From: Chloroflexota bacterium
GTDB lineage: Bacteria > Chloroflexota > UBA6077 > SHYK01
DNA length: 56,504 bases
Reading direction: 5' to 3'
NCBI GenBank assembly: GCA_009377635.1
Contig: WHTR01000006.1
Location: forward strand, 1 to 56,504
Shown: positions 9,622-53,796 of the stretch, piece by piece
Layout: each line of letters begins with the position of its first letter
How positions within the stretch are numbered: position 1 is the stretch's first letter
Translations under genes and position numbers: made by a program
The notes under the pieces: model-generated
Database searches by the model: none
What the model saw: only the letters and a program-made list of their open reading frames with translations
Told to the model about the DNA's origin: nothing

Positions 9622-10785
9622 CTACCCGCTGCGCCGCCGCCCGACGTATTCGCGGAGCGAGCCCTCGAGATTCGTGTCGACGATCGGATGGTCTCGCTCG
9701 CGGACGACCCCGAGCGGGTCCAGCCCCTCGCGCGTGCGCTCGATCTCGCGCATGATCATACGCCGGTACAGGACGATGCCGCGATCCGTCGTCGCGAGGC
9801 GCTCGGACCGCCGATCGGTGATCGGGCCCTGCGTCTCCCACGCCATGTAATCCTGCGCCGGAACCTCATCGAGCCGGAAGCGCGCGAACGGGTGCCGTGC
9901 GTCGATGGGCGCCTTGTACGGCGCCTCGTAGATCACCTCTGGCCGTTCGTCCTCGAGGTCCACGCCCGAACCATCGGGCCCCGGGTGGAACTCCACGATG
10001 AAGACATTGGTGTGCGTGTCATCGATCGGCACGCGCATCTGGGTTCGATTCGCGTTTCGGAGGATATTCGGGAAGATCAGCGGATGCTCATCGACGAGGC
10101 CATTGCGATAGGAGCGCTTCTTGATGATCCCACAGGGGACCTCGACGAACTCGAACTCCTCGACGTCGTCGGTCCGCCCGCGCGTGGTATTCGCAGGTCG
10201 CCGGTTCGCCCCATTGCCCCCGACGTCCTGGTGCAAGATCTGTAGGTGCGCCGGGTCGACCGAATTCTCCATCGCCTGGAACCAGTTGCAGTCGAGGCGC
10301 GGCTTGAGCCGCAGCACGCGCTGTCCGTCTCTGCGCGCCCACACGTCGTAGTGCGGGATCTCCGGCCCCGGTTCCGGACCGAGGTACGCCCAGTACATTC
10401 CGATGAATCTCCGCACCGGGTACGCCCGCTGCTTGACGGTCAAGTGAAACAGGCTTCCGGCGGGCTCGGCCGGACACTCGAGACAGTTTCCCTGCGCGTC
10501 GTAGAGCCAACCGTGATAGGCGCAGGCGATGCCACGCTCCTCAACTCGGCCGTACAGTAGCGAGGCGCCGCGGTGCGAGCAATGGTCGGCGAGGAGACCA
10601 ACATGTCCGCTTTTGTCCTTGAAGAGGACGAGGTCCTCCCCCAGGATACGGACGAAGCGCGTTGGCTGTTCGTCAGTCAGCTCCTGGACGTAGCCGACCG
10701 GGTGCCAGTAGCGACGCAGCAGCTCACCGGCTGGCGTGCCGGGGCCGATCCGGGTGAGCAGATCGTTCTCTTCCTGCGTCAGCAT
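9622..10785 (-). CDS. Rieske oxygenase, phthalate 4,5-dioxygenase type
   Basis: A 387-residue terminal oxygenase. The Rieske [2Fe-2S] ligands appear as CSHRG and CAYHGW, and the mononuclear iron site as ENSVDPAHLQILH, matching NxxDxxHxxxxH. The opening MLTQEENDLLTRIGPGTP is the N-terminus of the single-component phthalate-dioxygenase branch, also seen at 24028 and in the fragment at 32440. It would add O2 to, or demethylate, an aromatic acid using electrons from a reductase not visible in this window. The start is supported by a purine-rich GGAGGCGGAAG just upstream. Substrate is inference. Confidence 0.9.
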   Translation of the reverse strand: MLTQEENDLLTRIGPGTPAGELLRRYWHPVGYVQELTDEQPTRFVRILGEDLVLFKDKSGHVGLLADHCSHRGASLLYGRVEERGIACAYHGWLYDAQGNCLECPAEPAGSLFHLTVKQRAYPVRRFIGMYWAYLGPEPGPEIPHYDVWARRDGQRVLRLKPRLDCNWFQAMENSVDPAHLQILHQDVGGNGANRRPANTTRGRTDDVEEFEFVEVPCGIIKKRSYRNGLVDEHPLIFPNILRNANRTQMRVPIDDTHTNVFIVEFHPGPDGSGVDLEDERPEVIYEAPYKAPIDARHPFARFRLDEVPAQDYMAWETQGPITDRRSERLATTDRGIVLYRRMIMREIERTREGLDPLGVVRERDHPIVDTNLEGSLREYVGRRRSG

Positions 10786-10915
10786 CTTCCGCCTCCAGCG
10801 ACCCTTCTCGCGCCAGCGTACTCCGACTGAAAAGGCCGCGTCAAACGCACCGGCCCTCGAAAGGCGGCTGTGCCCCAGCCTCTGGTTCCATCGCCGTCAT
10901 GATGGGCGTCGTCCG

Positions 10916-24027: not shown

Positions 24028-25296
24028 TCAGACGGATGCGACCAGCGCGCTCCGAGCGCCATCGTCGATCGGCGTGCTTTGAGGCAGCAGGAACGCGGCC
24101 GATCGGACCCGGTAGGCCTCGCCACGGTAGGCTTCCACCGGTCCCTGGCCGCGCTGGGCATCTCTCACTGCCCGGAGGAGGCGATGGCGCACGGCGATGA
24201 CGGCCGCGTCGGTGGTCCCCAGGTGCTCCCGAGTCCGGTCGCAGATGGGGCCCCACTGGTCCTCCTGGACGGCGAGGTCCTGCTCGCGGATGCCGCGGAT
24301 TCCCGTGAACGATTCGGTCCGCTGCCTCTGCCGATCGACCAGGTAGTCGTTCGCCTTCGTCGCGACCGTCCCGTAGCTGCCCGGCACGACCTCGGCGTAG
24401 ATGCCGGTCCATGACTCGATGGTGGCGACCTCCGCCTCCGTAAGCGGGCGATCCGGATGCCAGGCGACCGTATAGCCCCAGAGGTTCTCGTCGTCCAGAG
24501 GGATGGCCGCCGTAAAGCTGATGGGGAATACGGGCTCGGCCGGGATCATCGTGTAGCTCGGCATGAGGAACTGCGTGATCCGCCAGTAGTGCGTCTCGTC
24601 GTTCCAGGTCCTCCGTGCACTGATGCGCAGACCGTACTCGGTTTCGTTCACCACAAACACGGGCGCGCGATCGGTCGCCTGTCCAAGGAGCGCCTGGCCG
24701 CGGGCCATCCGGCCGAGCTGGCCTGGGTTGAACTGCCGGTGGAGGAACGACACGTGGGCAGAGTCCACCTCGCCTTCCACGTTCTGGAGATAGTTGCAGG
24801 CCTGGCGCCGCTTGTGGACATAGCGATGGCTGCTCGGCACACGCGTCCACTCTAGCTGGGGCAGCTCGGACATCTCGTTTGGAGGTCCCAGATAGGCCCA
24901 GATGACCCCGCCAGCCTCGCGTGTCGGATACGCGGTGAGGCGGATCTTCTCTTTGAAGGTGCTCTCGGGTGGCTCATTGGGCATATCGACGCACTGGCCA
25001 TCGACATTGTACTTCCATCCATGGTACACGCACCGGATGCCGGACTCCTCATTTCGCCCAAAGAAGAGGGAGGCGCCGCGGTGGGCGCAGTGCGCTTCGA
25101 CAAGTCCGACTCTGCCCACAGAGTCTCGGAAGGCGACGAGGTCCTCCCCGAGCAACCGCACCCGGATGGGGGGACCGTCTGCCGCGGGCAGCTCCTCGGA
25201 CAGGAGCGCGGGCAGCCAGTAGCGACGGAACAGCTCACCCATGGGCACGCCCGGCCCGGTGCGCGTGAGGAGTTCGTTCTCTTCGCGGCTCAGCAT
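24028..25296 (-). CDS. Rieske oxygenase, phthalate 4,5-dioxygenase type
   Basis: A 422-residue oxygenase. Rieske ligands: CAHRGASLFFG and CVYHGWKYN. Iron-site motif: QNVEGEVDSAHVSFLH. The N-terminus MLSREENELLTRTGPGVPMG and the long C-terminal alpha-helical part (LVDRQRQRTESFTGIRGIREQDLAVQE) match phthalate 4,5-dioxygenase-like demethylases/dioxygenases closely, more completely than the 387-residue paralogue at 9622. It needs an FMN/2Fe-2S reductase, none of which is in the window. The next gene downstream, a solute-binding lipoprotein, is 48 bp away, so they are probably one transcript. Confidence 0.92.
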   Translation of the reverse strand: MLSREENELLTRTGPGVPMGELFRRYWLPALLSEELPAADGPPIRVRLLGEDLVAFRDSVGRVGLVEAHCAHRGASLFFGRNEESGIRCVYHGWKYNVDGQCVDMPNEPPESTFKEKIRLTAYPTREAGGVIWAYLGPPNEMSELPQLEWTRVPSSHRYVHKRRQACNYLQNVEGEVDSAHVSFLHRQFNPGQLGRMARGQALLGQATDRAPVFVVNETEYGLRISARRTWNDETHYWRITQFLMPSYTMIPAEPVFPISFTAAIPLDDENLWGYTVAWHPDRPLTEAEVATIESWTGIYAEVVPGSYGTVATKANDYLVDRQRQRTESFTGIRGIREQDLAVQEDQWGPICDRTREHLGTTDAAVIAVRHRLLRAVRDAQRGQGPVEAYRGEAYRVRSAAFLLPQSTPIDDGARSALVASV

Positions 25297-25435
25297 CGTC
25301 GTGCCTCCAGGAAGGCGGGCTCCGACGCAGATCAGCGCACGGCGTCGCAGCGCTCATCGCCTGACGTGTGTCACGCAACCAGATCCTGGCATCCCACGGA
25401 CGTCGTGTCAAATCGCGCGACCGCATGAGTGCCCT

Positions 25436-30652: not shown

Positions 30653-31150
30653 TCAGAGCACCGGCAACTGCCACAAAGCTTGATCATTGTTGATCAAGGA
30701 GACCTTTTTCCGACGGATTCGCCACCGGCCGTCAATCTGGGTCAGCAGGTGCTCCCAGGTCCCTGCGTACTGAGCTTCGCGGCCCTGCCTCGCAAAAGAC
30801 ACGACCTGGCTCGAGATTACGAGAAGCTCGTTGTCACCAGTCCACGCTGGAATCACATTGCCAACCAGGTGGCGATAGCTGGGTGGCGGCGACTGCGGCC
30901 CGATGCCTGGAAGCTTCAGACGGTAGACCCGGTGCTCCAAACCGCTGAGGTTCTCGTACGCGAGTTGGCCCCTTTCCTTCGGGTCGGAATCTGCGCTGCC
31001 ATTCGGCACCCAGTACAGCGCGTCAACGGTGAAGAGCGCCAGCCATTCGTCGTACTGCCGGCTGTCGACCAGCCAGGCCTCCCGGTAGAGGAATTGCTCC
31101 ACATCGTATTGGAGTGCCGGCCCGCCGAGCGTCCGAAGCACGCCGGTCAT
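30653..31150 (-). CDS. Aromatic-ring-hydroxylating dioxygenase, beta subunit
   Basis: A 165-residue small subunit with the NTF2-like cone fold: YDVEQFLYREAWLVDSRQYDEWLALFTVDALYWVP, then VYRLKLPGIGPQSPPPSYRHLVGNV, and WRIRRKKVSLIN. It has no catalytic centre and supports the hexameric alpha3beta3 complex. ATG 31150 overlaps the alpha-subunit stop (ATGA), which rules for the shorter start. Located directly after the alpha gene and 62 bp before the Gfo/Idh/MocA gene. Confidence 0.9.
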   Translation of the reverse strand: MTGVLRTLGGPALQYDVEQFLYREAWLVDSRQYDEWLALFTVDALYWVPNGSADSDPKERGQLAYENLSGLEHRVYRLKLPGIGPQSPPPSYRHLVGNVIPAWTGDNELLVISSQVVSFARQGREAQYAGTWEHLLTQIDGRWRIRRKKVSLINNDQALWQLPVL

Positions 31151-32424
31151 CGTCTGTCCGGCTCCGACATGAGTCGCGCCCACTCGCGGTAGAAGCCACG
31201 AGACAACAGGTCGGTCATCGAGTTGCTTTCTCGGTCTCCGTCCTCATTAACGCGCTCGTCGCGACCCATCTTGAAGAGCACCCACTGATCGACGTCAGCC
31301 CTCAAACCGCGTTGGACGCGCGTTAGGGCCTCCAGGTCGTCAACCTGGACGAAACCTGCGGGAGAACCCCACCCCGCGGTCAGTTCCAGGTTGGCCTGGT
31401 TGTACTCATCGGGCGCTCCAACGAGCCTGCAGGCGTACGTCTGGACTTCGCTTTGGTCCACGGCCAGCGGACGAACGATGCGGAAGTGATTCATATTCGT
31501 CTGAATGAAGAGGTTGGGGTAGATGAAAACGTGGAGGTCTGTTGCGACCAAACGACGAGCCTCGTCCGGCCCGACGCGCTCGCTGAGCGCTGTTATGTAT
31601 TCCGCGAGCTTCGGGGGATCCCCGAAAGACCGGGGAGGGCTGAATGTCATCATGGCATGGCCACGTGCAAAGCTGCGCTGGATGCGGCTTCCGACGTCCG
31701 AGGGCCGTGAGGCGGGGCCGCTTGACTGCGCTCCGGCCCCATTCGGCTCCTGGCGCCGTCGGCGTGGGCCGAAGCCGGCTGGATGCACGAACTGCGGGTG
31801 GTAGTTGTCCCCGAAATTGTCGAGCTGCAACTTCCAGTTTCCTACGTACCGCTGCTTGACGGGTTTAGTGGCCTGAACTTTTCGTTCGGGCGCGCGGCCA
31901 GAAAACTGATCGACCCACGGTGCAGCATGTCCGAGATGCTCCAAAAGATCCGGGCCGTCGCTGCCGAAGCTGACGAAGAGGAACCCACCATAGGTCGCCA
32001 CCCTCGGCAGACGTCCCAGGCCAAAGCTCGCGATGTCAAAGTCGGGGCCGAACTCCTCACGATATGGGACGCTAATCAATTCACCGTTGCTCAGGTACGT
32101 CCACCCGTGGTACGGGCATCTGAATACATTGGTCTTGCCGTAAGGGATCTCGCAAACCGTCGCGCCGCGGTGCCGGCACGAGTTGAGGAGCGCGTAGATC
32201 TTGCCATCCACATGCCGGGTGAGGATGATCGGCCGTCCATCGATGTCCTCGGTCTTGAAATCGCCGGGCTCGGGGATTTCACTTTCATGGCCTACGCAGA
32301 CCCACGTGCGGCCGAAGATGCGCTTCATCTCCGCATTGAAGATCGCCGGATCGGCAAAAATCCTGCGGCGCACCATGTCTTCTCTCACGAGGTCCATGGT
32401 CCGAAGCCGCATCTCAATTGCCAT
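31147..32424 (-). CDS. Aromatic-ring-hydroxylating dioxygenase, alpha subunit
   Basis: A 425-residue large subunit. The Rieske cluster is bound by CRHRGATVCE and CPYHGWTYLSNG; the catalytic iron by LDNFGDNYHPQFVH. The alpha-type C-terminal domain holds VFIYPNLFIQTNMNHFRIVRPL. It inserts both atoms of O2 into an aromatic ring to give a cis-dihydrodiol, with electrons from a ferredoxin/reductase not encoded in the window. Coupled by a 4-bp overlap to the beta gene. Substrate is unknown; the benzoate/naphthalene-like family is broad. Confidence 0.92.
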   Translation of the reverse strand: MAIEMRLRTMDLVREDMVRRRIFADPAIFNAEMKRIFGRTWVCVGHESEIPEPGDFKTEDIDGRPIILTRHVDGKIYALLNSCRHRGATVCEIPYGKTNVFRCPYHGWTYLSNGELISVPYREEFGPDFDIASFGLGRLPRVATYGGFLFVSFGSDGPDLLEHLGHAAPWVDQFSGRAPERKVQATKPVKQRYVGNWKLQLDNFGDNYHPQFVHPAGFGPRRRRQEPNGAGAQSSGPASRPSDVGSRIQRSFARGHAMMTFSPPRSFGDPPKLAEYITALSERVGPDEARRLVATDLHVFIYPNLFIQTNMNHFRIVRPLAVDQSEVQTYACRLVGAPDEYNQANLELTAGWGSPAGFVQVDDLEALTRVQRGLRADVDQWVLFKMGRDERVNEDGDRESNSMTDLLSRGFYREWARLMSEPDRR

Positions 32425-32439
32425 CCATCGCCCTCAATT

Positions 32440-37105: not shown

Positions 37106-38104
37106 CTACGCTTTTTCTTCGCGATAGAGCCCGAAGGTCTCGGCGATCGGAAAATCACCGATGGAGAAGAGGATCGCGGGCGCAGTCGTGGATCGGTTGC
37201 GATGCTGATGCCAGCGCCAGGACGGAATCGTGAACTGGTCGTGGTCCTCCCAGTCCAGCGCCTTGGGCTCGTCCAGATCTAGCGTGCTGACGCCCTGCCC
37301 CTGCACAACCAGGTAGCGTACCGATCCCGTGTGGCGGTGGGAGCGCGTCGCCTCGCCCGGGCGCAGCAGTTGAATCCTGGCCCCCATCGTCGGCAACGTG
37401 TGTCCTCCGGTGACCGGATTCGTGTATTCGAGCAAGACCCCATCATGGGGGTCGCACTCTTCCTCTGCCGCCATGCGCTCTAAGACCGGCAGGGTGTCCC
37501 GGAACTTGTAGGCGAAGGGAACCCAAGGGTTCGGGCTCCCCACCAGCCGGGCGGGACGGGTCACCCCGTAGAACTGGTTGTGGTAGCCATCGGGGTGAGT
37601 CAGCGGCTGCTGGGCCAGCCGCTCCCGCTCCGGGTCCCGTTCCCGCTCCGGCGGGAACTCCCAGAATTCCGCCTCGAGCAAGCCCACCAGGGCGTTGTCG
37701 AGCATGTCCATCCAGATGACGGGCTGGGAGCCGGGGTTCGAGTGGTCGTGCCAGCCCCAGTTGGGTTGTACCAGGAGATCCCCTGGCTCCATGAACATCT
37801 GCTCGCCATTACAGGTCGTGTAGGCCGTGCCGTCTCCCGTGACCACAAAGCGCATAGCGGACATGGTGTGCCGGTGGGCGGCCGCCCGCTCGCCAGGCAT
37901 GACGATCTGGTAGCCGCCCACGAGCCGACGTTCGGTCTGCTCCAGGCCCATGACCTCCGCAGCATCGAGCAACAAGGGGTAGACCTCGCGCCACCGGGTC
38001 ACGCGCGGGTCCGGGGGACGGCGCCGTTCCGGGCGCATCCAATACGCAAAGAGGCCTTTCTCGAGAATTTTTTGGTTGAGGGCCGCCAATCGATCTGCGC
38101 TCAC
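37106..38104 (-). CDS. Bicupin, gentisate/1-hydroxy-2-naphthoate dioxygenase-like
   Basis: A 332-residue two-cupin protein. N-terminal cupin: PGERAAAHRHTMSAMRF and WGWHDHSN, the three-His iron site of gentisate-type dioxygenases. C-terminal cupin: PGEATRSHRHTGSVRYLVV and WRWHQHRN, also with three His. Such enzymes cleave a ring between an OH-bearing carbon and the neighbouring carboxyl-bearing carbon using Fe(II) and O2. First of three bicupins in this strand run; the intact His ligands in both halves are noteworthy. Substrate not assignable; salicylate, gentisate and 1-hydroxy-2-naphthoate are the family's known ones. Confidence 0.85.
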   Translation of the reverse strand: MSADRLAALNQKILEKGLFAYWMRPERRRPPDPRVTRWREVYPLLLDAAEVMGLEQTERRLVGGYQIVMPGERAAAHRHTMSAMRFVVTGDGTAYTTCNGEQMFMEPGDLLVQPNWGWHDHSNPGSQPVIWMDMLDNALVGLLEAEFWEFPPERERDPERERLAQQPLTHPDGYHNQFYGVTRPARLVGSPNPWVPFAYKFRDTLPVLERMAAEEECDPHDGVLLEYTNPVTGGHTLPTMGARIQLLRPGEATRSHRHTGSVRYLVVQGQGVSTLDLDEPKALDWEDHDQFTIPSWRWHQHRNRSTTAPAILFSIGDFPIAETFGLYREEKA

Positions 38105-38151
38105 GGTAGCCTCCTTTGAGCCATCAGCTTTCAGCTTTCAGTTATCGACCT

Positions 38152-41957: not shown

Positions 41958-42977
41958 TCAGGCGGCCTCCTCTGTGTAGAAGCCAAGAGCTCGCATAGCC
42001 GGCCAGTCGCTCACAGAGTAGAGAATCGCGTCCTCAGCCGAGCCGTTTTCGTGACAATGCCAGCTCCACGATGGGACGCTGAATAGGTCGCCCTCTGCCC
42101 ACTCGAGCCGCTCGCCCTCCACGACGGTGCACCCGGCGCCCCGGTGGGCGTAATAGAGCGTGGTACACGAATGCCGATGGGTCTTGGTCTGCTGGCGGCC
42201 GGTGAGGAGCTGAATCTCACAGGACATCGTCCGTACCGTCGGCCCGCTGTCGACCGGATTCGTATACATGAGGCGGATCCCATCATACGGATCGCCCTCG
42301 GTCTCACTCGCCTGCAGCGCCATCAGTGTAGCGTACGTCTCGGACCACGGGTAGCGCATGGGAGGGAGCACGTACTCGTGCTCTATCCCCGTCGGCTGGG
42401 CGAGCCCCCCGGTACGACGCGCAAAGTCGGCCGGGCGATCGATCACCTGGTGTTGATCGTCCTCTGGGTAACGCTCGTTGATGTCCACGCCGAAGCGAGT
42501 GAGTCCCATGTCGAGCGCGTCCAGCCAGACTGACGGCCGGTCGCCTCGGTTCCAGTGGTCATGAGTCGTCCACGTTGGCGTCACGATGAGATCCCCGGGC
42601 TCCATCGGGAAGGCCTCGCCCTCCACCACGAACACCGCCTCGGGCGGGGCCTCCAGGACGAACCGGATCTCGTTTTTCACGTTTCGGTGGGCGCGGGTTC
42701 GCTCGCCCGGCATCAGGATCTGGTGGCCCAGCGAGATGGTGCTGCTCCCGAGCTGCGCGCTCACGAGTCGCATCTCTACCATACCCTGGGGGCCGACGGG
42801 GACCAGCTCGCCAGAGCGGAGCAGGGCTGGGTAGATGTCGGCCTTCTTGGCCAGACGGGGTTTGGCGGGCGGGCCGCCGGGGCCCTCCGCGCCCTCGCCG
42901 CGCATCCAGTAGGCGCCCATGCCGCGCTCGCGCAGCCACCCGTTCAGATCCGCGAGCCGGTCCTCAGCAACAGTCAT
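41958..42977 (-). CDS. Bicupin dioxygenase-like protein with altered N-terminal metal motif
   Basis: A 339-residue two-cupin protein. The N-terminal cupin reads PGERTRAHRNVKNEIRFVL and TTHDHWN: the second His of HxH is Asn. The C-terminal cupin is intact (KTHRHSCTTLYYAHR, WSWHCHENG). In gentisate dioxygenases the N-terminal cupin holds the active iron, so activity here may have moved to the C-terminal cupin or been lost. Its ATG overlaps the TGA of a 14-codon ORF. Paralogue of the proteins at 37106 and 43068. Confidence 0.82.
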   Translation of the reverse strand: MTVAEDRLADLNGWLRERGMGAYWMRGEGAEGPGGPPAKPRLAKKADIYPALLRSGELVPVGPQGMVEMRLVSAQLGSSTISLGHQILMPGERTRAHRNVKNEIRFVLEAPPEAVFVVEGEAFPMEPGDLIVTPTWTTHDHWNRGDRPSVWLDALDMGLTRFGVDINERYPEDDQHQVIDRPADFARRTGGLAQPTGIEHEYVLPPMRYPWSETYATLMALQASETEGDPYDGIRLMYTNPVDSGPTVRTMSCEIQLLTGRQQTKTHRHSCTTLYYAHRGAGCTVVEGERLEWAEGDLFSVPSWSWHCHENGSAEDAILYSVSDWPAMRALGFYTEEAA

Positions 42978-43018
42978 GCCGCACCTCCGATCAAGATGAC
43001 ATTGTATTCACGCGCCAT
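42974..43018 (-). CDS. 14-codon ORF, likely flavoprotein N-terminal remnant
   Basis: ATG 43018 follows GAGGAG and reads MAREYNVILIGGAA then TGA, which overlaps the bicupin start (ATGA). The sequence looks like the first strand and dinucleotide-binding turn of an FAD protein (DVIVIGGGA). Probably a scar that now couples translation of the bicupin. Confidence 0.4.
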   Translation of the reverse strand: MAREYNVILIGGAA

Positions 43019-43067: not shown

Positions 43068-44093
43068 TTAGTCGCTTCCCTCTCGGTAGAAGCCCCAGGC
43101 CCGCATGGTTGGCTCGTCCGTGACCCGGTATAGGATGGCGTCCTCACCCAGGCGGTTCTCATGCTGGTGGAGCCGCCAGGGCGGCACCTGGAAGATGTCC
43201 CCCGTGGCCCATGCGACGCGCTCGCCATCGACGAGCGTCGTGCCCTCGCCCTGCACGACGAAATACGAGGTCGTGCAGTTGTGGCGGTGGGCCTCCGTCG
43301 CGAAGTGCGGTGGCAGGAGCTGCACTGCGGCGCTGAGGGTCGGAATGGTGGGTCCGTGGCTGATGGGGTGGGAATAGGTCACCACGTAGCCGTCCAACGG
43401 ATCGGGATCGTCCTCGTTCTCCTTCAGCGCGTCGAGCGCGGCTACGGTATCGGCCCAGCGGTAGCGATAGGGTGGGGTGGGCAGCGGACTCGTGATCCAC
43501 GACGGGCGCAGCCGCCCCCAGGTATCGGCCGCATGGCCGGGTGGCTTAGCCAGCGGCTGAGTGGGCTGTGCGTACACCTCTCGAAACATGTGGCTCAATC
43601 GGGCGAAGTGCAGGTCCAATGCATCCAACCAGAAGACCGGCGCATCACCGACGTTGCGATAGTCGTGCCACGCCCACCAGGGCGTGGTGATGAGGTCGCC
43701 GTCCGCCATGGGGAAGGCCTCGCCCTCCACGACCATGGCGGCCTGGAGATTGCCTCGAATAATGAAGCGCAGTCCGGCCTGGGTATGGCGGTGGGCCTCC
43801 GCCACCTCGCCCGGCATGAGAATCTGCACACCGAAGCCCAGCTTGCTGATCTGTTTCCGGCCGGCCATCTGGCCCGCCAGGGCGCCGGTCTGGTCCATGG
43901 AAACGAGCTCACCCGCCCGCTGGAGCGCCTCATGATACTCCGACCTCTTCCAGATCAGCGGGTCAGCCCGCTGGCCACCTGCACTCGTGGGCGCGTTTGT
44001 GCCCCAGCGGCGCCACGACCCACCGAGCCCACGCTCGTTGAGATACTGGTCGAGCTCGGCAATGCTTTGCACCGATGTAATGTCCACGTCCAC
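43068..44093 (-). CDS. Bicupin, gentisate dioxygenase-like
   Basis: A 341-residue two-cupin protein. N-terminal cupin: EVAEAHRHTQAGLRFIIRG and WAWHDYRN; C-terminal cupin: HFATEAHRHNCTTSYFVVQG and WRLHQHEN. All HxH pairs and the later His are present. It is first of the minus-strand run that continues through the second bicupin, lyase and amidohydrolases. No good promoter is seen in the 140 bp upstream. Probably Fe(II)-dependent ring cleavage of a hydroxylated aromatic acid. Confidence 0.84.
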   Translation of the reverse strand: MDVDITSVQSIAELDQYLNERGLGGSWRRWGTNAPTSAGGQRADPLIWKRSEYHEALQRAGELVSMDQTGALAGQMAGRKQISKLGFGVQILMPGEVAEAHRHTQAGLRFIIRGNLQAAMVVEGEAFPMADGDLITTPWWAWHDYRNVGDAPVFWLDALDLHFARLSHMFREVYAQPTQPLAKPPGHAADTWGRLRPSWITSPLPTPPYRYRWADTVAALDALKENEDDPDPLDGYVVTYSHPISHGPTIPTLSAAVQLLPPHFATEAHRHNCTTSYFVVQGEGTTLVDGERVAWATGDIFQVPPWRLHQHENRLGEDAILYRVTDEPTMRAWGFYREGSD

Positions 44094-44258
44094 CTCCTGT
44101 GCACGGCTAGCGTCAACTGCGCTATGCGATAGCTTATCACTGCTCCTGATCAGCCGTGCAAGCGGTAGCTCGCCTTGTCAGCATCGCGGCTTGCGAAGGT
44201 GCTCTATCAAATTCGTTTCAACCCGCCGCAATCTTATTCCAGGTATGAGCCGATAGCA

Positions 44259-51722: not shown

Positions 51723-52772
51723 ATGCGTGAACGCGAGCGCGAGGTCGCTACGCACTACGATGTCCAGATGGATCGCCGCGTCGCCGACGTGGAAGAGTGG
51801 GAGCGCAATCGAAAGGTCATGGCGCACGGCCGGAATCTTGTGATGACGCATTCTCCGCTTCGCAACGCGCGGTATGGAACGCTGGTTGGGCTCGGCGGTC
51901 AGTGCCCCTCTCGAGTCATCGACACCCGGATCATCGAAGTGGCGCCTGGGCAGCGAACGAGCACCCATCGCCACGTCCACACCGCGGAGCTGCTCGTGCT
52001 CGATGGCGAGGGCTATACCGTCGTCAACGACCGGCAGTTTCGCTGGAGCACGTGGGACGCCTTCTACATCCCCGCCAACGCCTGGCACTACACAGTGAAT
52101 ACGGGAAGCACCCCGGCGCGATTCGTGAGCATCAGTGACGCACCCCTCTTCGACCTGTTCAACATGGACCGGATCGATGACATCGGACAGGCTGAACCAC
52201 CAGGTCCCTTTTTTCCGGACACCGAGCTCCAGCGTCTCGCCCAAACGGTTGAGGGCCGCGCGCCGAGCGAGTATGAGCGGGCCATCCTCGCCGCGGCGGA
52301 GAACGAGCGCCACCTGGCGACGGGGACCCTCGTCACGCACTTCCAGGACCAAACCTTGCTTCTCAACAAGAAGGGCACGAAGAGCACGTTCCTGGTGGAC
52401 ATCTCCCAGGGCTATCACGGGACGCAGCTCAGCATGGTGATGTTCCAGATCGCGCCCGGCGGATGGCAGTCAAAGCACCGCCACGGCGGGGAGGCGGTTC
52501 TCTACTGCGTCGACGGCCGGGGCTACAGCATCGTAGACGGCGAGCGCCACGACTGGGAGGCGGGAGACGCGGTGCTTGTCTCGAAGTGGTGCTGGCACCA
52601 GCACTTCAATGCCGACCCGGACAACGTTGCCGTCATCATTCGCATGCACATGTGGGAGAGCCAGTACAAGCTGATGAGCTTCTGCCTCTATCCCCTCCCG
52701 ATGTATGAGGAGCCGGCGCGCCTAGACGGAAGCGACCCGTCCCTCTGGGAGCGCCACACGGTGGAGGCTTAG
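51723..52772 (+). CDS. Bicupin metalloprotein paired with an AAA ATPase
   Basis: A 349-residue two-cupin protein. Both halves hold full four-ligand cupin motifs: THRHVHTAELLVL and ANAWHYTVN in the first, KHRHGGEAVLYCVDG and WCWHQHFN in the second, unlike the three-His bicupins at 37-44 kb. AAGGGGG lies 7 bp before ATG 51723. Its stop is one base from the start of the following AAA ATPase gene, so the two are tightly co-translated. Probably binds Fe or Mn; a ring-cleaving or sugar-acid role is possible, but the reaction is unknown. Confidence 0.82.
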   Translation: MREREREVATHYDVQMDRRVADVEEWERNRKVMAHGRNLVMTHSPLRNARYGTLVGLGGQCPSRVIDTRIIEVAPGQRTSTHRHVHTAELLVLDGEGYTVVNDRQFRWSTWDAFYIPANAWHYTVNTGSTPARFVSISDAPLFDLFNMDRIDDIGQAEPPGPFFPDTELQRLAQTVEGRAPSEYERAILAAAENERHLATGTLVTHFQDQTLLLNKKGTKSTFLVDISQGYHGTQLSMVMFQIAPGGWQSKHRHGGEAVLYCVDGRGYSIVDGERHDWEAGDAVLVSKWCWHQHFNADPDNVAVIIRMHMWESQYKLMSFCLYPLPMYEEPARLDGSDPSLWERHTVEA

Positions 52773-52773
52773 C

Positions 52774-53796
52774 GTGCGCGACAATGACGTCAACCTCTAC
52801 CGGGGTGCGCGCCTGTTTGCAGAGTTTGGCCCGTTCGTCGGCGAGCCGGGACCCGATGGCACGGCAGTCACAGAGAACGACATCCTCGGCGAATTCTATC
52901 GGCGGGTCCTCGCGGAGACGACGGCGATCGTGGCCCATCAGTGGCGGAACGAGATCGCTCGGAGCGCCCTGAAGGGGTTTCTCTTCTGCGGCGGTGTGGG
53001 CATCGGAAAGACTACGATGGCCCGACGGCTCGCCTACGAGCTCGTGCGCATCTTCGGCGCGAGCAACGGGTCGAGCACAGGGACCCCACCGAACCGCGCC
53101 TCGGCTTCATTACCAGACAGTGCCCACGCCCATAGCGCCCTCGTCGTGGCGGGTCCGGACCACACCCACGGAGACGCACACGGCGAGCCGCACGAGCACC
53201 CGCCGGCGACGCTCGGCTGGGACGTCGCCGGCGACGACACCGTGCTGGTCATCGTCGACGGAGCCGACATCGCCCGCGGGCGCTACGGAGACAGCGAAGA
53301 GCAGTTGCGCAAGCTGTTCCAGTTCGCGCGCGAGGGGGAGTTCCACGGCCACCGGCACGAGGACGATCCGGTGCGACGCACGGTGCTCCTGTTCGATGAT
53401 GTCGAGAGCCTGTTCCTCGCCCGCGGCTCCGGCGGGGCAAAGGAATGGCACTTCAGCCAGAACAGCGTCTTCTTTCACGCCGTTGACGAGCTAGACACCG
53501 CGCGAACCGCGGTCGTGCTGACGACGAACCGGATTGATCTCGTTGATGAAGCCATCATCGACCGCTTCCTGCCCTACGAGTTCGGCGCGCCGCCGCCGGA
53601 GGTCTTGCGCGAGGTGGCCCGCCACCGGGCGGCTCGACAGCGGCTCGACGACGCGCGCCTGGCGCCCGTGCTCGCCGCCTTGGACGACCCAGCGGGTACG
53701 GTGAAGAGCATTCGCGACGTCGAACGGATGGTTACGCGCGCCTACGTGGCGAGCATCGTCGGCCATGACCGTGCAGCCGTCAGCGGCGACCGATGA
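52774..53796 (+). CDS. AAA ATPase with His-rich insertion
   Basis: A 340-residue AAA-family ATPase. Walker A is GGVGIGKTT (about 73-81), a pore-loop-like ADIARGRYGDSEEQLRKLF follows at about 164-182, Walker B is VLLFDD (204-209), sensor 1 is VLTTNR and the arginine finger DRFLP. Between Walker A and the pore loop is an insertion with about seven His in 25 residues (AHAH, then HTHGDAHGEPHEH), and HGHRH recurs near 191. It is translated with the bicupin. A chaperone or metal-loading role, in the manner of AAA proteins that activate metalloenzymes, is inferred; no family member of known function matches. Confidence 0.8.
   Translation: MRDNDVNLYRGARLFAEFGPFVGEPGPDGTAVTENDILGEFYRRVLAETTAIVAHQWRNEIARSALKGFLFCGGVGIGKTTMARRLAYELVRIFGASNGSSTGTPPNRASASLPDSAHAHSALVVAGPDHTHGDAHGEPHEHPPATLGWDVAGDDTVLVIVDGADIARGRYGDSEEQLRKLFQFAREGEFHGHRHEDDPVRRTVLLFDDVESLFLARGSGGAKEWHFSQNSVFFHAVDELDTARTAVVLTTNRIDLVDEAIIDRFLPYEFGAPPPEVLREVARHRAARQRLDDARLAPVLAALDDPAGTVKSIRDVERMVTRAYVASIVGHDRAAVSGDR

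Follow-up and report, generated by a model that had tools for sequence, protein, structure and literature searches.

An AAA ATPase encoded directly behind a ring-cleavage-type bicupin across several soil- and groundwater-dwelling bacterial groups suggests a dedicated activating motor

Introduction

Rings of the AAA superfamily pull or loosen their client proteins, and NorQ and CbbQ are AAA proteins of the MoxR type that work with VWA partners. For TRIP13, another AAA protein, the clients described to date are, to our knowledge, HORMA proteins. The usual view of cupin dioxygenases is that they load iron unaided. A precedent for a motor acting on a metal site is provided by NorQ/NorD, in which ATP-driven opening serves non-heme iron insertion (PMC9976466), and the GTPases HypB, UreG and COG0523, which occur with or without histidine stretches, have been read as a mixture of insertase and metallochaperone (PMC2770081).

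No description of a cupin acting together with an AAA ATPase or with TRIP13 was found in the literature searched, in which subscription papers were thinly covered, so that this absence is no proof. Here we present a bicupin gene and an AAA ATPase gene that lie together at one locus, and compare this pair with its relatives in other genomes. We refer to the AAA family of the ATPase at this locus as A3, and to the TRIP13-family AAA proteins encoded behind other bicupins as A4.

Gene order at the locus

The window, by which we mean the whole stretch of DNA analysed, is a 56.5-kb contig of genome G000 (3.5 Mb, 84% complete), and the bicupin and AAA genes lie at its right end, both on the forward strand (Table 1). 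The bicupin stop codon TAG (52770-52772) and the GTG start of the AAA gene at 52774 are separated by one base, in agreement with an earlier, sequence-only reading of this DNA, and the GGAGG that probably serves the AAA gene as ribosome-binding site lies 6 bases upstream of its start, within the 3' end of the bicupin gene. The pair is flanked on the opposite strand by the N-terminal half of a transketolase on the left, and by one further protein gene and PlsX on the right. As the genes on both flanks run in the opposite direction, the bicupin and AAA genes form a two-gene unit.

Table 1. Positions of the bicupin and AAA genes and of their sequence features in the window
Feature	Position	Strand	Basis or remark
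Bicupin gene, 349 aa	51723..52772	+	Probably the client of the AAA; resembles gentisate/salicylate dioxygenases
N-barrel metal motif HRH (H82, H84)	51966..51974	+	H122 (52086-52088) is the third His
C-barrel metal motif HRH (H252, H254)	52476..52484	+	H292 (52596-52598) is the third His
GGAGG, probable ribosome-binding site of the AAA gene	52763..52767	+	Read in the sequence
AAA ATPase gene, 340 aa, A3 family	52774..53796	+	GTG start; ORF, Pfam AAA match, ten homologues, AAA fold in model
Walker A GGVGIGKT, residues 73-80	52990..53013	+	Alignment
Insertion between alpha1 and beta2, residues ~96-155	53059..53238	+	Predicted disordered; f1 only
Seven insertion His, residues 118-142, HAH...HTHGDAHGEPHEH	53125..53199	+	H118, H120, H130, H132, H136, H140, H142
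Second His cluster HGHRH, residues 191-195, loop alpha2-beta3	53344..53358	+	His 191, 193 and 195
Walker B VLLFDD, residues 204-209	53383..53400	+	Alignment of ten A3 homologues
Family signature EWHFSQNSVFFH, residues 224-235, pore-loop 2/alpha3 region	53443..53478	+	After Walker B
Invariant R264, candidate arginine finger, motif DRF	53563..53565	+	Alignment

The AAA ATPase

The window AAA matches the Pfam AAA domain (PF00004; E=1.5e-14, 55 bits against a cut-off of 21.2) and has the features by which membership of that family is recognised, namely Walker A, Walker B, the sensor 1 asparagine N252 and R264. The catalytic glutamate of Walker B is replaced by aspartate (DD for DE) in all ten A3 homologues, and ATP hydrolysis may therefore be slow, or may be regulated. 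Most residues of the family signature are invariant across the same ten proteins, including two histidines. The predicted structure has an AAA fold outside residues 97-153 and matches the proteasome ATPase, Vps4, katanin and Trip13 in the PDB, with 6p8v ranking among the best matches; the solved structures closest to it are of the p97/NSF/Vps4/TRIP13 type.

Three more specific assignments were rejected. The MoxR/NorQ class has no match to the window AAA in NCBIfam, PF00004 is the sole Pfam match, and a VWA gene was noticed beside none of the cupin–AAA pairs examined. The PADLOC TRIP13 model is matched weakly and over part of the model only (29 bits), and the protein is not a TRIP13, because it lacks the SRAD motif, in whose place it has DRF, and ETNPVD, and because its Walker B is DD; its partner is a bicupin, and in the AAA tree it stands well apart from the group formed by A4 and CBASS members. 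Finally, a defence system was set aside, PADLOC giving no convincing match for the window AAA and none for the bicupin.

The bicupin

The window bicupin contains two Cupin_2 domains (E=5.3e-32), its best PDB relatives are gentisate 1,2-dioxygenases (8.7e-17), and its orthologues in two other genera are 78-82% identical to it. When it is aligned with 16 relatives, the metal histidines of the N-barrel are conserved in all bicupins covering that region and those of the C-barrel in 17 of 17, the C-barrel site aligning with the HRH...WxWHxH of gentisate dioxygenase. The canonical glutamate position of cupin motif 1 is alanine in both barrels (A88 and A258), as in gentisate dioxygenases. Two glutamates lie close by: E89, one residue late, is unconserved beyond the closest four sequences, and E257, one residue early, is conserved and might still bind metal or substrate. 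The sequence-only reading had ascribed complete four-ligand sites to both cupin halves, and here it was mistaken, the sites being three-His sites with alanine at the glutamate position; with this one claim failing, its observation is partly confirmed, holding in outline.

In structural terms the protein has what defines a gentisate 1,2-dioxygenase, a bicupin with a three-His iron site, and it does not reach the equivalog cut-off of that enzyme, scoring in NCBIfam 63.1 against 442.1 for gentisate dioxygenase and 82.9 against 650 for the 5-aminosalicylate model. The structure model of the bicupin, built from two sequences, has a pLDDT of 44.8 and is too poor to use. We regard the window bicupin as probably a dioxygenase that depends on iron and cleaves aromatic rings, akin to the gentisate dioxygenases. 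The window further contains an apparent aromatic-degradation cluster (9000-44200), assigned from sequence motifs and a reading of the genes, and ring cleavage by the bicupin is therefore likely. Rieske-type oxygenases (9625-10896, 24031-25353 and 31150-32433) and amidohydrolase-like genes belong to this cluster, as do three more gentisate-dioxygenase-like bicupins at 37109-38137, 41961-43007 and 43071-44177.

Pairing of A3 AAA genes with cupins

Profile searches for A3 covered 400 Chloroflexota genomes, about 300 genomes of the phylum to which two 'Deltaproteobacteria' MAGs belong, and GTDB contigs. They gave ten A3 AAA loci in total, eight of the 400 Chloroflexota genomes having one, and no members in the other phylum beyond those two MAGs. 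A cupin gene lies within about 10.4 kb of the AAA gene in all ten loci and immediately adjoins it in seven. In G000, G001 and G002, which represent all three genera with the pair in the family we call f1, the bicupin is directly upstream and co-directional, with spacings of 1, 1 and 17 bp. In L022 and L024, from the two 'Deltaproteobacteria' MAGs, the AAA gene comes directly after two single-cupin genes and is itself followed by a gene whose product has two cupin domains, and in G319 and G221 the bicupin adjoins the AAA gene in convergent orientation. The nearest cupin in G008, G013 and G207 is not immediately adjacent, lying 1.6 to 10.4 kb away, which counts against coupling: G008 has a true bicupin orthologue 10.4 kb from the AAA gene, at the contig end, G013 a split cupin pair 5 kb upstream and a gentisate-dioxygenase-like bicupin 1.6 kb downstream, and G207 a cupin at 6 kb. 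The AAA and bicupin trees concur, both giving G008,(G001,(G000,G002)). A plasmid search with the window AAA gave no match, and one with the window bicupin only distant cupins.

Some of these cupins are divided. The bicupin is split into two single-cupin genes at L022:4648-5714, L024:6770-7839 and L020:3671-4785, the second split cupin of L022 and L020 being without the HxH motif, which suggests one active and one inactive half. The bicupin of G221 (L035:6482-7657) is present as two ORFs, by frameshift or splitting, and is intact in the close relative G319 (L034).

How far chance could account for the linkage can be gauged from the number of Cupin_2 matches, which is 56 in G000 and 10-17 in the smaller genomes. 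By a rough count, the probability that a cupin and the AAA gene adjoin directly by chance is at most about 3% for each locus in G000, and that of a cupin within the observed distance roughly 4-6% in G008 and G207. The A3 loci are not all independent, including three f1 relatives, two 'Deltaproteobacteria' and the two loci of G319 and G221; they are rare, and come mostly from metagenome bins.

A third clade of bicupins (G109, G172 and G179) has no A3 or A4 AAA gene adjoining it or elsewhere in those genomes, so that such bicupins can occur with neither family present; at its loci (L041-L043) a gene for an NMT1-like substrate-binding protein follows in L041 and L042. No A3 or A4 AAA gene lies beside the three other bicupins of the window either, and the AAA link is therefore specific to the clade of the paired bicupin. 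Taken together, these cases show that the pairing characterises two clades of bicupins, with their relatives, and is not general to gentisate-dioxygenase-like cupins.

A second AAA family behind related bicupins

In nine further Chloroflexota genomes (L044-L052), a bicupin belonging to the clade of the window bicupin (230-252 bits) has an A4 AAA gene no more than about 10 bp behind it, the gene directly before A4 being the bicupin in nine of nine; these loci fall in three families. The A4 partners show the marks of TRIP13: all nine carry the SRAD motif, SRAD and DVHRATDA motifs being common to A4 and CBASS members, and that of L049, the sole one scanned, matches the PADLOC TRIP13 model over its full length (E=1.3e-88, 295 bits, residues 12-289 of 294). 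The loci L044-L052 would thus be labelled TRIP13 by PADLOC, and are likely false positives for CBASS finders.

An A4 profile search of the same 400 Chloroflexota genomes returned these nine and two looser, CBASS-type members, which adjoin HORMA-like and nucleotidyltransferase-like genes, assigned by reading the sequences. The plasmid relatives of A4 lie with an annotated CBASS cyclase in four of four cases examined, and altogether six of six looser TRIP13 relatives examined are in CBASS-type loci. In L085 and L086, the two neighbourhoods of cupin-linked A4 that were read completely, no HORMA or CD-NTase gene was seen, and type III CBASS was rejected for these loci; the control loci do contain such genes. 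A branch of TRIP13 therefore accompanies bicupins instead of HORMA proteins.

That a single bicupin clade is found with two AAA families speaks for functional coupling, and for the bicupin as the partner. The sequence-only reading had proposed a functional pair and a survey of homologues for conserved pairing; the survey bears this out for two AAA families and in no fewer than two phyla, and the conserved pairing strongly supports the pair, which is wider than was proposed. We regard the AAA–bicupin coupling as well supported.

The histidine clusters

Between Walker A and Walker B the window AAA has exactly ten histidines, where the sequence-only reading had counted about ten in two clusters. 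Most of them lie in the insertion, which is predicted to be disordered (pLDDT < 50 at residues 97-153). The His-rich insertion is present in only three of the ten A3 homologues (G000, G001 and G002, one genus each), the other seven having a short loop in its place, and across f1 it varies in length and sequence and is always His-rich, with seven histidines in G000, four in G001 and about ten in G002. The second cluster, with 3-4 histidines in six of the ten homologues, is somewhat older than the insertion on the evidence of this distribution. Shuffling of the window AAA protein gives p of about 0.018 for five histidines in 15 residues, which is mildly unusual, and the retention of the insertion in three diverged genera appears the better argument for selection. 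The pattern HxHxHxH (x = 0-4), used for COG0523 metal chaperones (PMC2770081), occurs in the window AAA (HTHGDAHGEPH, residues 130-140) and in the insertion of G002, and is missed in G001.

Since the insertion is disordered, variable in length and absent from seven of the ten homologues, the core mechanism of the pair cannot lie in it. The alignment places it as a late addition found in one bacterial family only and, by analogy, as at most a metal-holding accessory of the HypB/COG0523 kind. Of the seven homologues that lack it, two still lie between cupin genes and two more next to one; the absence of the insertion from homologues, which the sequence-only reading had named as a refutation, has thus partly come about. 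The idea that the ATPase stores metal or delivers it to the cupin consequently finds no support as a general mechanism, and would describe at best a lineage-specific extra; the earlier interpretation is in this sense partly supported, the pair being upheld.

Proposed mechanism and alternatives

Our main reading, to which we give a probability of about 0.55, is that the AAA protein is a dedicated remodelling motor, or activase, for the bicupin encoded just before it. The A3 AAA would assemble as a ring, which would spend ATP on opening the bicupin or unfolding it in part, and this action would let Fe(II) enter the bicupin or would reset an oxidised or inhibited centre. The bicupin would work in an aromatic-degradation setting, and a dioxygenase of the ring-cleaving type, whose Fe(II) is easily oxidised, makes sense as a client to be loaded or reset. 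The ring would be the old, shared part of the system; the lineage of the window would later have gained a flexible His-rich loop on it, a recent metal-holding extra that may keep Fe, Zn or Ni near the bicupin, as in some HypB, UreG and COG0523 proteins. Of this scheme, the gene order, the conservation of the pairing, the presence of two AAA families with a single bicupin clade and the limits of the His loop are observed, whereas the assembly into a ring, the contact between the two proteins, the remodelling, the metal step and the substrate are inferred. A broader version, which we offer tentatively and at somewhat under even odds, is that a two-gene module of bicupin dioxygenase and AAA ring arose with two AAA families, one of them a TRIP13 that exchanged HORMA for a cupin, and that in one Chloroflexota family the ring gained a metal-holding His loop, so that it both opens and metallates its client.

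The functional element might instead be the His-rich insertion, which would store metal and pass it on to the cupin. Ten histidines between Walker A and Walker B, a differing but His-rich insertion kept in three genera, and the match of the window and G002 to the COG0523 pattern (PMC2770081) speak for this, yet we consider it unlikely, as nine of nine TRIP13-type partners and seven of ten A3 proteins, four of these directly beside cupins, do without the insertion, and as it is disordered and variable, the four histidines of G001 missing the pattern. Similarly doubtful is a role for the bicupin as a sensor or adaptor that would recognise a small aromatic ligand and direct the AAA towards another target, in the way HORMA acts for TRIP13. 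The relatives of the TRIP13-type partner use HORMA adaptors in CBASS (PMC9122588), the bicupin occupies the genomic place of HORMA, and one split cupin of L022 is without the HxH motif; however, the metal histidines are kept in both barrels of all aligned bicupins, as expected for an enzyme, aromatic-degradation genes surround several loci, and no constant third gene was found among them.

The remaining explanations would dispense with a bicupin client, and we think both very improbable. Cupins are common in catabolic clusters, and with 56 Cupin_2 matches in G000 the linkage could be a by-product of cupin-rich clusters without any functional link, but adjacency is immediate and co-directional, with a spacing of 1-17 bp, in 12 genomes and with two AAA families, its chance frequency is low even in G000, and the linkage is kept in the genomes with 10-17 matches. 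Slightly less probable still is a role of the AAA in maturing another neighbour, for instance a molybdenum hydroxylase, in the manner of CoxD with CO dehydrogenase: a gene of that type lies just upstream of the AAA gene in G013 and 2.7 kb off in G221, whereas no relatives of those genes occur in the window or the f1 loci read, and the constant partner is the bicupin. A molybdenum hydroxylase as constant partner was accordingly rejected, being present in a minority of loci only. The dedicated motor for the bicupin is the reading we prefer.

Comparison with known systems

If it is true that the bicupin has a dedicated ATP-driven partner, some cupin dioxygenases need activation or repair, and this need could explain failed expression of such enzymes. 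A metabolic enzyme as partner of TRIP13 would likewise give a lead on how the TRIP13 motor changes its clients. For genome annotation, defence-finding tools may mislabel cupin-linked genes as TRIP13/CBASS, and the loci do not resemble defence loci.

The A4 partners belong with TRIP13/Pch2, which includes the bacterial Trip13 (Cap6) of type III CBASS, but the CBASS protein is accompanied by HORMA and CD-NTase, whereas the partner of cupin-linked A4 is a bicupin. The window AAA is only weakly similar to TRIP13 (1.5e-7) and has a comparable fold (6p8v), and differs in lacking ETNPVD and SRAD and in its DD Walker B. NorQ/NorD and CbbQ/CbbO resemble the pair in that an AAA motor is dedicated to activating a neighbouring, often metal-dependent, enzyme; those systems are of the MoxR class with a VWA protein, whereas the window AAA matches PF00004 only and no VWA gene was noticed. 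With HypB, UreG and COG0523 (CobW) the window AAA shares an NTPase that has a His stretch in some family members only, although they are P-loop GTPases, and the stretch here is in an AAA ATPase, between alpha1 and beta2. Finally, the bicupin resembles the gentisate and salicylate 1,2-dioxygenases in its two barrels, its three-His sites of the form HRH...WHxH and its best PDB matches, and is distinguished from them by scores far below the equivalog cut-offs and by the AAA gene that follows its own.
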